A stretch of DNA of 64,000 nt from Gammaproteobacteria bacterium (GTDB taxonomy: Bacteria > Pseudomonadota > Gammaproteobacteria > Enterobacterales > Alteromonadaceae): positions 1-64,000 of the forward strand of contig JAHKAA010000038.1 of assembly GCA_018825965.1 (NCBI GenBank), read 5' to 3'. The notes beneath the pieces are model-generated. The model saw only the letters and a program-made list of their open reading frames with translations, searched no databases and had not been told where the DNA came from. Shown here in pieces: positions 59,356-64,000 of this stretch. How positions within the stretch are numbered: the first letter of the stretch is position 1; each line of letters begins with the position of its first letter. The position numbers and the translations under genes are program-made.

Positions 59356-62022
59356 ATGTTTACAAATAATAAATTATCAAAGGCAGTGCGTTTAGCTGTT
59401 GCTTTTGGTGCAGCTTCAGTTGCCTTTTCATCTGTAGCTCAGGAAGCTGCATCAGAAGAGGAAGCAAAAGACGTAGAGCGTATCGAAGTAACTGGTTCAC
59501 GTATCAAACGTACTGACTTGGAAGGTTCATTACCAATCACTACTATTGACCGTGCTGCTATTGACATGTCAGGCCAGCTGTCAGTGACTGACTTGTTACG
59601 TAACACCACTTTTAACTCTTTTGGTTCTAACCGTACTACCTCTGGTAGCTCTGCTCAGGGCGTGTCTGAAATCAGTTTACGTGGTTTAGGCGCCAACAGA
59701 ACATTAATTCTGATCGACGGCAAACGTGTACCTAAGTCACCTTTAACAGGTAGCTCACAGGATTTAAACCAGTTGCCACTGGCTGCTGTAGAGCGTATTG
59801 AAGTACTGCAGGATGGTGCATCAGCAGTTTATGGTTCAGACGCTATTGGTGGTGTTGTCAACATTATCACCCGTAAAGACTACGAAGGTGCTGAAATTAA
59901 AGTGGGTGCCTCACGTATAGGCATTCCTTCAGAAGGCGGTGACCGTGAAGAAGGTAGTTTCCTGATTGGTTCTGCCAACGATAAAACCAACCTGATGGCT
60001 GGTTTCTCCTGGAACAACAGTGACATTGTTTTTGAACGTGCTTTCCCATGGAATGTGGGAAACCGTGGTTTATCTCCATACGGTAACAACTGGGCTGATT
60101 TAACATCAACTGGTCGTGCTCCGGGCGCTACTCAGGTCAAGTCATTAACTCAGGCTTGTGATTTTGAATTATTCTATACAGCTCAAAGTCCTTGGATTCC
60201 AGCAAATCAGATCTGTAGTTATGACTTCCGGCAAACCAACGCCAACGATTCATCTACAGGTAACCAGTCGCTGTTTTTACGTGGTACTCATGAATTTACA
60301 GACAACTGGAAAGTTTATGGTAATGCTAATGTGGCTAAAACCAAATCTTTTGGCCGTTATGCTGCTTCTTTGAACGATCCTGGCAGTATCATTGCTGCAG
60401 ATAGCCCAAATAACCCAACGAATCCAAACAGTCCATTGTATGATCAGGCTGCATTTGATGCAGGCCCTGGTGGTCAGCGCCGTGTTGCAGTATTCCACCG
60501 TTTTGCTGCTTTAGGAACCCGGGATAATCAGGTTGATAACTACGCTAATGACGTGATGGTTGGTTTGGAAGGTAATGTAAACGACATCGATATCGACTTC
60601 GGTGTACGTAAAGCTAAAACTAAATCCTATGAAAGAGGTACTGGCTACCTGCTGCGTTCTGCTGCAGATATTGCAATGGACAGCGGTGCCTACATGTTAA
60701 ACGATCCTTTTGGTGAGCGTTTTACTACTGCTACAGACCAGGCGGCTTACCGCGCACTGTTAAACTCAATGAACGTCACTACTTCTCGCGTCAGCCAGTT
60801 TGATCAGGAAGAAGTGTTTGCTTCTGCTGCTTTTGATGTAATGGAGTTAGACGCTGGCGCTATTCAGGCTGTAGTAGGTGCTGAGTACCGTAAAGAGGAG
60901 TACAGCGACAAGTATGACTCTCTGTCAGAAGCTGGTGTGGTTGGTGGTTCAGCCGGTGCTTCTGCTGGTGGTGGCCGTGATGTGAAGTCAGCTTACTTTG
61001 AAGCTTTAGTACCTGTTGCTGAGCAGTTTGAACTGAACTTTGCCGGTCGTTACGAGAAGTACTCAGACTACGGTAATGACTTTGCACCTAAAGTATCAGC
61101 CCGTTACGAGCCGTTAGAAGGCCTGGTATTACGTGCTTCAGTAGGTAAAGGTTTTAACGCCCCAAGCCTGGATATTCTGACGCAACAACCTGCTTCACGT
61201 AACGATACAGTGCAAGATTTTGTATTGTGTGACCGAAATGGTACACCTGTCGCCAGTTGCCCATCCAGTCAAATTCGCTCTACAGATATAGCTAACCCTG
61301 AACTGGAATCAGAGCAATCTGATCAAATGTCTTTTGGTGTAGCTTATCAGCCAACAGACTGGTTAAACTTTGCTGTTGACTACTACAATATCAAAATTGA
61401 AGACTCAATCCGTTATATCAGCTTGCAAACCCAGATTGACCGTCAACGTGCTGGCGATAATATCCCTGCTGGTTTAGGTATAGTTCGTGACCCTGTGAAT
61501 GGCGCTATCCTTGAAGCTACTACAGGTTCTGCCAACGATGGTACTCTGGAAACTTCAGGTATCGACTTAAATATCGCGACTAACTTTGATTTTGGTAACT
61601 TCGGTAAGCTGAAATCAACTTTCCAGGCCAGCCATGCATTTGACTACAAAGAAGATGGTGACCGTAACCAGGTGAAAGATCCTGGCCAGCCACAACGCCG
61701 TATGTCATTAAACCATGCCTGGAGCATCAGCGACTTTGACGTGTCTTTCACGACTAACCTGATTGGTGATCAGTTCAACAACGTAGTGAAAGATGCACAG
61801 GGTGTAGTGACTCGCTCTGGTCATATCGCTACATGGACTACGCATGACCTGCAAGTGGTTTACCACACTGGCTGGAATGCAGATATCACTGTAGGTGCTC
61901 AGAACCTGTTTGAGAAGTTCCCACAACTTGGTGTTTCAAGCGCTTCAGGTCGTGGTTTAGACTACACCTTGTATAACGCTTACGGCCGTATCAGCTACGT
62001 TCGTTACACTCAACGTTTCTGA
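59356..62022 (+). CDS. TonB-dependent outer-membrane receptor
   Basis: An 888-residue receptor. The signal peptide (LAVAFGAASVAFSSVAQ) precedes a TonB-box-like VERIEVTGSRIKR (about 40-52), the plug domain (about 58-175; LPLAAVERIEVLQDGASAVYGSDAIGGVVNIITRKDYEG) and a long barrel ending YTQRF. The IKRTDLEGSLPITTI plug type belongs to the large receptors of Alteromonadales and Caulobacterales linked with sugar, peptide or iron uptake, so the ligand is not predicted. GGGAGA lies ahead of ATG 59356. No Fur box was recognised; the flanking genes give no hint. Confidence 0.93.
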   Translation: MFTNNKLSKAVRLAVAFGAASVAFSSVAQEAASEEEAKDVERIEVTGSRIKRTDLEGSLPITTIDRAAIDMSGQLSVTDLLRNTTFNSFGSNRTTSGSSAQGVSEISLRGLGANRTLILIDGKRVPKSPLTGSSQDLNQLPLAAVERIEVLQDGASAVYGSDAIGGVVNIITRKDYEGAEIKVGASRIGIPSEGGDREEGSFLIGSANDKTNLMAGFSWNNSDIVFERAFPWNVGNRGLSPYGNNWADLTSTGRAPGATQVKSLTQACDFELFYTAQSPWIPANQICSYDFRQTNANDSSTGNQSLFLRGTHEFTDNWKVYGNANVAKTKSFGRYAASLNDPGSIIAADSPNNPTNPNSPLYDQAAFDAGPGGQRRVAVFHRFAALGTRDNQVDNYANDVMVGLEGNVNDIDIDFGVRKAKTKSYERGTGYLLRSAADIAMDSGAYMLNDPFGERFTTATDQAAYRALLNSMNVTTSRVSQFDQEEVFASAAFDVMELDAGAIQAVVGAEYRKEEYSDKYDSLSEAGVVGGSAGASAGGGRDVKSAYFEALVPVAEQFELNFAGRYEKYSDYGNDFAPKVSARYEPLEGLVLRASVGKGFNAPSLDILTQQPASRNDTVQDFVLCDRNGTPVASCPSSQIRSTDIANPELESEQSDQMSFGVAYQPTDWLNFAVDYYNIKIEDSIRYISLQTQIDRQRAGDNIPAGLGIVRDPVNGAILEATTGSANDGTLETSGIDLNIATNFDFGNFGKLKSTFQASHAFDYKEDGDRNQVKDPGQPQRRMSLNHAWSISDFDVSFTTNLIGDQFNNVVKDAQGVVTRSGHIATWTTHDLQVVYHTGWNADITVGAQNLFEKFPQLGVSSASGRGLDYTLYNAYGRISYVRYTQRF

Positions 62023-62157: not shown

Positions 62158-63114
62158 ATGGAACACTGGAACAATCTCTGGAGTACGACAGAAGCTTTAA
62201 GCAGTTTTGCTGAAGGCGAAATGGCGTTTGGATACAAAGGGGCTGTAGCCGACTATTGGTTGTCAGTGTTTGAAACTCTGGGCGAACAGGCGGTGCTTGC
62301 CGATTTGTGTTGTGGTAATGGGGTTTTGCTTTTAGCTGCCGCCAGTTATGCAAGCTCAGCAGAAAAAGATCTTGTGTTATATGGCATCGATGCTGCTCAG
62401 GTGAATTTCTCTGCGGTAAAGCAACAATTAGCAAAACTAACTCCTAAGGTAAAATCAGAGTTTCTCGATAATACATCAATAGAGAAGTTACCACTGGCTG
62501 ATCAATCTTTGGATTTAGCTATTTCTCAGTTTGGTTTTGAGTACACGGACTTGGATCTGTCGTTAGCTGAAGTGCACAGAGTATTAAAATCAGGCGCTTC
62601 ACTTTGTTTTATTGCTCATCACCCAGACTCTTTTATTTCCAAAGACTGCCAGTTAGGAGTGAATATTTTGCGCTCGCTATTGGATCAGTGTTTGTATTTT
62701 GATTTGGCTATATCTCTGATTGAATTAACTCTTCAGCTCAAGCAAAAAGCTATATCCCCTGAAAAGGTGCCTGCCTTTGCCCAGGTCAATCGGGCGTTAT
62801 TGTCCATCATGCAAAAGTTTAATCAGAGCTATCAGTCCGATGAAGCACAAGAGTGGTTTTCCGATCTGTTCCGCCAAACAGCTCAGGCGGTTATGAAATC
62901 GGATGCTGCAGCTTTAGAGACAATCAAAACCTTAAAAATGAATACCGGCTTTCATCTGCAACGTTTACTGCAACAGCAGGCCGTAGTGTTAACCCAGGAA
63001 CAACTTGATGCTAAGCTGGCAGCTAAGCCCGGGCTTTTTACTGCTGCAGTTTATACAGAGATCCGAAGCGACGATGGGCTAATAGGTCTGGCTGTGAAAC
63101 TGACAAAAATGTGA
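62158..63114 (+). CDS. Class I SAM-dependent methyltransferase
   Basis: A 318-residue methyltransferase. Motif I VLADLCCGNGVLLL (about 39-52), the acidic residue in YGIDAAQ, the post-I motif and LDLAISQFGFEY, then AEVHRVLKSGASLCFIAHH match the UbiE/BioC-like fold. A helical C-terminal extension (about 165-318) is unlike typical UbiE. The substrate is unknown. It lies 178 bp before the hvfA-like gene and shares its direction, so a functional link is possible, though nothing in the sequence demands it. Confidence 0.8.
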   Translation: MEHWNNLWSTTEALSSFAEGEMAFGYKGAVADYWLSVFETLGEQAVLADLCCGNGVLLLAAASYASSAEKDLVLYGIDAAQVNFSAVKQQLAKLTPKVKSEFLDNTSIEKLPLADQSLDLAISQFGFEYTDLDLSLAEVHRVLKSGASLCFIAHHPDSFISKDCQLGVNILRSLLDQCLYFDLAISLIELTLQLKQKAISPEKVPAFAQVNRALLSIMQKFNQSYQSDEAQEWFSDLFRQTAQAVMKSDAAALETIKTLKMNTGFHLQRLLQQQAVVLTQEQLDAKLAAKPGLFTAAVYTEIRSDDGLIGLAVKLTKM

Positions 63115-63250
63115 GCTTTATGACTCAGAAGCCAGGATTATAGCTTCTGCGTTTATTTGCTGAATTGCTAAAACCAACCTATGGTGTGCTGTGTTCTGAT
63201 AAATTTTTAGCAAAACGAAATTTTTTTTGTGTAGTACAGGTCTACTGAAC

Positions 63251-63291: not shown

Positions 63292-63624
63292 ATGAAAACG
63301 AATAAAACTACTGCTGTTGCCGTCAGCGCTTTGGTACTGGGTTCTTTATCCACTTTGAGTTTAACTGCTCATGCGAATCCGTTTTCAGCTGAACAGTTGA
63401 ATGCCGGTTACCAGTTAGCCTCAGCAGAAGCCTCTTGTGGCGCTGATAAAGCCAAAGATAAAGAAGCTAAATGTGGTGAAGGCAAATGTGGTGAAGACAA
63501 AGCCAAAGATAAAGAAGCCAAATGTGGTGAAGGCAAATGTGGTGGCGATAAAAAAGACGGCAAAGACAAAGAAAAAACCAAAGAAGCTAAATGTGGTGAA
63601 GGCAAGTGCGGTGGCGCTGTATAA
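63292..63624 (+). CDS. hvfA: HvfA-type RiPP metallophore precursor peptide
   Basis: A 110-residue exported precursor. After a signal peptide (AVSALVLGSLSTLSLTAHA) comes a short leader region (FSAEQLNAGYQLASAEA) and a lysine-rich core with Cys49, 61, 66, 78, 83, 101 and 106. The block EAKCGEGKCG occurs three times (EGKCG at 63-67, 80-84, 103-107). Two complete 17-residue units, DKAKDKEAKCGEGKCG+E/G, are encoded by a 51-bp tandem repeat (63445-63495, 63496-63546). EGKCG repeats define HvfA-type precursors, in which a DUF692 enzyme converts Cys to copper-binding oxazolone-thioamide groups. ATG 63292 has AAGGA eight bases upstream. Confidence 0.85.
   Translation: MKTNKTTAVAVSALVLGSLSTLSLTAHANPFSAEQLNAGYQLASAEASCGADKAKDKEAKCGEGKCGEDKAKDKEAKCGEGKCGGDKKDGKDKEKTKEAKCGEGKCGGAV
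63445..63546 (+). repeat. Two tandem 51-bp coding repeats within hvfA
   Basis: Two near-identical 51-bp units encode DKAKDKEAKCGEGKCG plus one residue, differing in a few third positions (GAT/GAC, GCT/GCC) and in the last codon. A diverged third unit follows (63547 onward) with the EAKCGEGKCG core. Confidence 0.8.
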
Positions 63625-63635
63625 CACCGAAGAAT

Positions 63636-63666
63636 GTCAGCCTGCCAGTGCAGGCTGACTGCTTTT
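63636..63666 (+). terminator. Intercistronic hairpin between hvfA and hvfB
   Basis: A perfect 10-bp stem, GTCAGCCTGC (63636-63645) and GCAGGCTGAC (63650-63659) with CAGT loop, then TGCTTTT. It lies 12 bp after the hvfA stop and 12 bp before the hvfB start, so it could act as a partial terminator or RNA-stabilising element. Confidence 0.65.
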
Positions 63667-63677
63667 AAGGAGAGCTT

Positions 63678-64000
63678 ATGTCTGATGTCCCTTTGGGTTT
63701 AACTGCTACAGAAGTCGGCTTGGGTTTACGACGTGAAATGCTCTCTACTGTGCTGGAACAGCCTCAAACCGACATCGACTTTTTTGAAGTAGCGCCGGAA
63801 AACTGGTTGCCTTATGGTGGCACCTATCAGAAAAAATTCCGTCAGTTAACCGAACGTTACCCCTTTATATGCCATGGTTTGTCTTTATCTTTAGGCAGCC
63901 CTGATCCATTGGATCTGGATTTTGTTCACCAGATCAAAGCTTTTTTAAAAGAACATCAAATTCAGCTTTACAGCGAACATTTAAGTTATTGCTCTGCTCA
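63678..64000 (+). CDS. hvfB: DUF692/MNIO enzyme (HvfB-type), partial at the window edge
   Basis: The first 107 residues of a DUF692 protein: VGLGLRREMLSTVLEQ, DIDFFEVAPENWLPYGG, the metal-binding CHGLSLSLGSPDPLDLDFVHQI and YSEHLSYCS, all typical of the MNIO family (multinuclear iron oxidases such as MbnB). It follows the hvfA-like gene and has AAGGAG upstream. The enzyme would modify the EGKCG cysteines. The rest and any partner gene (HvfC) lie past the window. Confidence 0.85.
   Translation, partial: MSDVPLGLTATEVGLGLRREMLSTVLEQPQTDIDFFEVAPENWLPYGGTYQKKFRQLTERYPFICHGLSLSLGSPDPLDLDFVHQIKAFLKEHQIQLYSEHLSYCSA

Follow-up and report, generated by a model that had tools for sequence, protein, structure and literature searches.

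The end of the window, by which we mean the whole 64,000-nucleotide stretch analysed here, carries a precursor gene and the start of the gene for a modifying enzyme, and we assign these with high confidence, together with the next gene on the contig, to a captophorin (Buf_EGKCG/oxazolin) operon, hvfABC. The locus is an ordinary further example of a published class, Buf_EGKCG/oxazolin, now called the captophorins. The locus by itself adds little, since one study already collected about 2,000 precursors of the EGKCG group and a second one over 24,000 MNIO-PME1 loci; the added value of the analysis is a predicted scattered regulon. We lean towards the view that an ECF sigma factor and a DUF3379 protein acting as its anti-sigma factor control hvfABC and the distant gene hvfX through the promoter-like element GAAA-N19-GTCT. 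This regulatory lead matters more than the locus as a captophorin, offering a candidate function for the DUF3379 family. If true, it would raise the testable question of which signal turns captophorins on, and a form working through DUF3379 would be new among the known cases of ECF control of such operons. Published captophorin, MNIO and ECF-controlled systems are cited below from the available portions of PMC13097082, the preprint PMC12668002, PMC12452194, PMC13419390, PMC7907618, PMC3511200 and PMC12538549.

Table 1. Features of the hvfABC locus and of the hvfX operon. Positions above 64,000 lie beyond the window on the same contig; from hvfC to the DUF3379 gene, open reading frame starts are as mechanically listed.
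Feature	Position	Strand	Remarks
Proposed ECF-type promoter of hvfABC	63217..63243	+	GAAA 63217-63220, 19 nt, GTCT 63240-63243; spacing conserved in relatives
hvfA-like precursor gene	63292..63624	+	ATG start, stop codon included; 110 aa; very probable captophorin, EGKCG (Lys-Cys) group; NF050137 61.9 bits, cut-off 19.5
Probable Sec signal peptide, aa 1-28	63292..63375	+	by eye, from translation
Leader stretch NPFSAEQLNAGYQLAS after signal peptide	63376..63423	+	similar F..x..L..GY stretch in relatives' precursors, by eye
EASCG site, possible seventh modified Cys	63427..63441	+	conserved in relatives
Core block 1 EAKCGEGKCG, aa 58-67	63463..63492	+	its 15-bp EGKCG missing here in 11/11 closest relatives
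Core block 2 EAKCGEGKCG, aa 75-84	63514..63543	+	translation
Core block 3 EAKCGEGKCG, aa 98-107	63583..63612	+	translation
hvfB, MNIO (DUF692), first 107 codons in window	63678..64000 (gene end 64526)	+	282 aa; PF05114
hvfC	64528-65265		PF09836, PF22106, NF050145 over cut-off
Proposed hvfX promoter	71591-71617		element GAAA-N19-GTCT
hvfX	71635-72291		HvfX model over cut-off
ECF sigma gene	72288-72950		behind hvfX
DUF3379 gene	72919-73653		behind ECF sigma gene

The initial annotation had described a secreted peptide with three EAKCGEGKCG blocks beside a DUF692/MNIO gene, and this description is confirmed. A probable signal peptide (..LTAHA/NP) stands out by eye, and the seven cysteines of the precursor lie at residues 49 (in EASCG), 61, 66, 78, 83, 101 and 106. 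The EAKCGEGKCG repeat is not due to chance: when the residues after position 27 of the precursor were shuffled 20,000 times, no 10-mer ever occurred three times. TRF gave a period of 51 bp with 1.9 copies and 97% matches in the gene, and positions 63448-63498 and 63499-63549 are identical, ungapped, at 47 of 51 bases. The 51-bp tandem repeat described earlier is thus real in its period, but covers blocks 1 and 2 only; one pair of blocks is exactly 17 residues apart and the third stands at 23, after a longer, different spacer.

Profile models bear out the earlier placement of the locus among the HvfA/HvfB-type RiPPs. The precursor exceeds the cut-off of the HvfA-family repeat domain in NCBIfam (Table 1), as do the other products those of HvfB (438.1 bits, cut-off 360), HvfC (258.1 bits, cut-off 142) and HvfX (208.6 bits, cut-off 80). 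The hvfB product scores 352 bits on PF05114 (cut-off 25), and Pfam matches in the gene set comprise MNIO, DUF2063, NGO1945_C and DoxX. The precursor itself has no Pfam match at an E-value of 0.01 and falls below the narrower HvfA equivalog NF050188 (51.1 bits, cut-off 95); going by these scores it is a member of the HvfA family that is not filed as an HvfA ortholog. Three marks of a captophorin were found at the locus, namely repeated EGKCG-type 5-mers, an adjacent MNIO with iron ligands and an adjacent PME1 partner (DUF2063 with an RRE domain), and published members of the EGKCG/Lys-Cys group (Buf_EGKCG/oxazolin) are described as carrying such 5-mers in 17-residue repeats. Two other classes were tried and rejected, methanobactin (MbnB equivalog TIGR04159, 38.3 bits for a cut-off of 325) and DUF2282 bufferin, Buf1 (MNIO_BufB, 267.5 bits for a cut-off of 310).

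To judge the iron ligands of the hvfB product we mapped site 3 through the MNIO structure 3BWW, which aligns at an E-value of 1.7e-68, and judged the other ligands from conservation. N180, D222 and H224 align to chain positions 175, 241 and 243 of 3BWW and are probably the counterparts of the HvfB site-3 ligands N175, D242 and H244, two of these numbers differing by one; alanine variants of these ligands are reported to be inactive. None of the three residues varies among the 14 MNIOs aligned, and the initial annotation's reservation that the DUF692 protein might lack metal ligands falls away with these apparent matches. R18, R19, D253 and F254 are likewise invariant in all 14 and correspond by motif to R15-R16 and D249-F250 of FonB, of which only D249 is reported to be essential on mutation.

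The hvfB gene starts 53 nt after the precursor stop and continues beyond the window end, on a contig that reaches position 134,586 in a genome of 4.65 Mb. The initial annotation had proposed extending the contig and had named a missing partner gene as an argument against its reading; the extension showed hvfC adjoining hvfB, and hvfX about 6 kb further downstream in a separate operon. The gene next after hvfC is apt, by an NCBIfam match. We take the genes between apt and hvfX to be dnaX, ybaB, recR and htpG, and those after the DUF3379 gene are presumably adk and hemH. An open reading frame containing KCG repeats lies close to hvfB in 27 of the 30 loci from this genome and its relatives and in 68 of 80 loci of a second, overlapping set. 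The host genus is Rheinheimera; the MNIO is 89-90% identical to those of Rheinheimera faecalis, R. sp. 1928-s and R. soli. Among the first ten of 147 matches of a joint literature search for the genus with captophorin, oxazolin, bufferin and MNIO were five MNIO papers, none of which mentions Rheinheimera. Upstream on the same strand are a TonB-dependent receptor gene (59356-62022) and a SAM methyltransferase gene (62158-63114), with no sign that they belong to the operon.

Upstream of hvfA the 12 closest loci have little in common beyond a block, GAAATTT...GGTCT, and the short untranslated leader from there to the start. We scanned GAAA-Nx-GTCT with x from 10 to 30 in the hvfA and hvfX regions, the MAFFT alignment upstream of hvfX being too diverged to read. 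With a spacer of 19 nucleotides the element precedes hvfA in 24 of the 25 loci and hvfX in 16 of 22, this genome being counted in both, and is missing from the remaining one and six; any other spacing occurred at most twice. The hvfA scan covered 25 of 27 loci, leaving out L028 (no usable start) and L029 (cut by the contig end), and the hvfX scan 22 of the 24 loci over the cut-off, leaving out L035 and L049, which are truncated at contig ends and whose match falls away from its normal position. In the second set, which comprised 61 of the 80 loci after removal of 12 without a KCG open reading frame and seven with less than 150 nt upstream, the element preceded hvfA at N19 in 27 and at N18 in eight, with other spacings from 8 to 32 at no more than three; the two sets share at least six contigs and their counts are not independent. 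By genus, N19 was found in 9 of 10 Rheinheimera, 9 of 15 Shewanella, 6 of 14 Pseudoalteromonas and 0 of 2 Alishewanella loci, and its background elsewhere in 68 loci was 0.0033 per 300-nt window. We rejected a genome-wide short pattern as a definition of the regulon: TGAAA-N18-GGTCT gave nine sites against 27 for the reversed control, no enrichment, and missed the hvfA site (CGAAA), and the spacing control with a pattern one base longer gave 20 against 79. A stricter pattern matched a single site in the whole genome, the hvfA promoter, with three for the reversed control.

The element occurs together with the ECF-DUF3379 pair. DUF3379 was surveyed for 50 of the 61 loci of the second set (L079, L088, L089, L101, L105, L118, L124, L130, L131, L138 and L143 were left out, six of them with the N19 element) and is present in 35 of the 50 genomes. 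The element, at N18 or N19, was found in 26 of the 35 genomes with DUF3379, being absent from nine even with N18 allowed, and in none of the 15 without (Fisher p 5.8e-7, with kinship ignored and some MAGs perhaps incomplete). In the first set all 24 element-bearing hvfA regions come from genomes with DUF3379, and L027 (genome G029) has neither. An ECF gene directly precedes the DUF3379 gene in all 30 loci read, out of 36 places. Before these ecf operons, which include hvfX loci already counted in the 16 of 22, the N19 element was found in 16 cases and not in 14, any other spacing from 8 to 32 in at most four; hvfX lies inside the ecf-DUF3379 operon in four of the 30. It is possible, though in our judgement rather unlikely, that a different sigma factor reads the element or a different regulator binds it, and that the link to DUF3379 reflects shared ancestry only. 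In favour of this, the association statistics ignore phylogeny, and 11 of the 15 genomes without both are Methylococcales-type or Nitrosomonas. Against it, 16 of the 30 loci have the same element ahead of the ecf(-hvfX) operon, as expected for self-control, and two genomes of Alishewanella, which we take to be nearer kin of Rheinheimera, are also without both.

An alignment of 31 DUF3379 sequences shows H122, C166 and H175 to be invariant (numbering from the listed open reading frame start), with histidine at position 125 in 26 sequences and at position 118 in 24, where this genome has asparagine. By eye there is one hydrophobic helix near residues 86-110, and if the N-terminus is inside, as we assume, the histidines and cysteine would sit outside the membrane. 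The predicted structure (four sequences) is of low confidence, with a mean pLDDT of 63.6, and consists of an N-terminal helical part, a long helix and an alpha/beta domain. No match reached E <= 0.001 in a PDB fold search with this model; RseB/MucB turn up repeatedly among the 50 matches listed (E 0.07-0.5, probability 0.75-0.98), which may serve as a lead only. The sole anti-sigma sequence match of DUF3379 is weak (NF047528, E 2.2e-4, 20.5 bits for a cut-off of 200), and the family is named in no paper of the literature searched. On balance we think it somewhat more likely than not that a dedicated ECF sigma factor of the PRK12517 group, held by DUF3379, governs the captophorin operons of Rheinheimera and of many Shewanella and Pseudoalteromonas, that DUF3379 is an anti-sigma factor of a new type, sensing copper or another thiol-reactive stress through periplasmic H122, C166 and H175 (with the mostly conserved His125 and His118), and that GAAA-N19-GTCT joins the pair, hvfX and hvfABC into one scattered regulon.

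Under ECF-DUF3379 control, the ECF factor would act at GAAA-N19-GTCT and be held by DUF3379, a membrane anti-sigma factor with conserved His and Cys outside, and the ECF factor would switch on hvfABC and hvfX-ecf-DUF3379 together. HvfA would be made with a Sec signal peptide and held by HvfC (DUF2063 with an RRE-type partner), and the multi-iron MNIO HvfB would, by analogy with studied relatives, convert each Lys-Cys-Gly cysteine into a 5-thiooxazole by an oxidation that removes 4 H, at the six motif cysteines and possibly at that of EASCG as a seventh. HvfX, of the DoxX family, would assist from its second operon about 6 kb downstream. As its relatives suggest, the product would be exported and bind Cu(I), either within the periplasm or outside the cell, and it would buffer copper or oxidative stress. 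The same operon and chemistry might serve mainly in defence against hypochlorite, other oxidants or other metals and not in copper buffering, a tentative explanation that we consider the less probable one. In published work, the ECF factor RpoE2, a regulator of the hypochlorite response, is reported to control a Haemophilus influenzae operon of the same composition (DoxX, periplasmic protein, UPF0276, DUF2063), and a DUF2282/DUF692/DUF2063/DoxX operon of Caulobacter is under sigmaF, which responds to chromium and cadmium; against this, copper binding is described for fontiphorin and gonophorin, and bufferins are reported to aid growth under copper stress. The first ten of 147 papers matching the Rheinheimera search yielded no comparable evidence for that genus.

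Four published systems come nearest to this locus. Fontiphorin (FonABC, Fontimonas thermophila) has the same core 10-mer, an MNIO with a PME1 partner and the Lys-Cys group residues. It differs in that seven sites of FonA are modified, recovered in peptides carrying two, three and two of them, and in that the fon cluster is minimal and without DoxX. Oxazolin (HvfABC with HvfX, nontypeable H. influenzae) likewise has three two-cysteine blocks, HvfB, HvfC and HvfX, and a signal peptide comparable to the probable one here. Its blocks read AEGKCGEGKCG, so that the first half-block is EGKCG there and EAKCG here, and the Rheinheimera locus differs further in its extra conserved EASCG, in having hvfX in a separate operon and in a precursor below the HvfA equivalog cut-off. 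MmrABC/bulbicupramide (Microbulbifer), reported to bind copper, also combines three two-cysteine cassettes with Lys-rich flanks, an MNIO and DUF2063; the flanks differ from those here, and DoxX is unmentioned in the main text of the MmrABC paper. As to regulation, the ECF control reported in H. influenzae uses RpoE2 with an HrsE-type anti-sigma factor, in contrast to the DUF3379 type proposed here. In Caulobacter, sigmaF and NrsF, a membrane anti-sigma factor whose conserved outward-facing cysteines matter, control an MNIO-DUF2063-DoxX operon; NrsF is unlike the DUF3379 locus in its six predicted membrane segments, its family, DUF1109, and the DUF2282 precursor.

The initial annotation had suggested two kinds of modified cysteine per unit. 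The pairing of AKC and GKC that it noted is real, EAKCG and EGKCG alternating in all three blocks, and 11 of the 12 closest loci, this one included, retain all three copies of EAKCG. FonA 67-80, SGEAKCGEGKCGEK, contains the same 10-mer, however, and both of its cysteines are reported to lose 4 H, to be alkylated and to show identical NMR signals of a 5-thiooxazole. A paired motif therefore need not mean two chemistries; FonBC is also reported to tolerate changes at position 2 other than Pro, and EGKCG occurs alone in several more distant relatives (L022, L023, L025-L028). By analogy, two different modifications within each block are very improbable. We give equally little credence to an unmodified, metallothionein-like metal binder beside an MNIO acting on another target: cysteine-rich repeats could bind metal without modification, and precursor genes unlinked to MNIO genes are reported in the Buf1 and Buf2 subfamilies, but here the precursor lies directly 5' of hvfB-hvfC, KCG repeats accompany hvfB in most loci of both sets, and the hvfB product keeps the residues with which MNIOs of the Lys-Cys group read their substrate.

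The EASCG sequence, read earlier as a degenerate site, is kept in 18 of 18 loci (L003-L020), as EASCG in 16 and EAACG in two. FonBC is reported to accept EAACG or Thr at the Lys position, Ser not being among the substitutions in the available part of that report. The EASCG cysteine is possibly a seventh modified site, and EASCG/EAACG offers a natural test case for whether a site without Lys is accepted by these enzymes. The initial annotation also took the 51-bp unit to be the one that recombines. Close species differ instead by 15 bp: EGKCG in block 1 is unique to this genome among the 12 closest loci, the 15 bp being absent from all 11 others, and L006 is additionally without EGKCG in block 2. 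By this comparison the lineage has gained a single EGKCG unit of 15 bp, a core-unit gain caught between close species. Repeat counts in relatives, which had been proposed as a check, range from 2 to 24 KCG over the 68 loci with a KCG open reading frame (best frame only, some clipped by contig ends), and with six KCG here and up to 58 cysteines in published relatives, the core is not unusually amplified.

Several minor observations concern the relatives and the hvfX region. The captophorin operons of Alishewanella L072 and L129 have no GAAA-N18/19-GTCT, DUF3379 was not found in those genomes, and another regulator probably acts on them. Between htpG and hvfX there is a long palindrome, GGGGTCAGATCAC.../...GTGATCTGACCCC, at contig positions 71520-71569 (14521-14570 of L002); L045 has a similar one, and several other relatives have a different sequence there. 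Five relatives (G004:C175, G008:C378, G013:C1, G016:C39 and G021:C1) carry a second hvfB-hvfC pair, with 56% MNIO identity, and beside it a shorter hvfX-family gene on the opposite strand.
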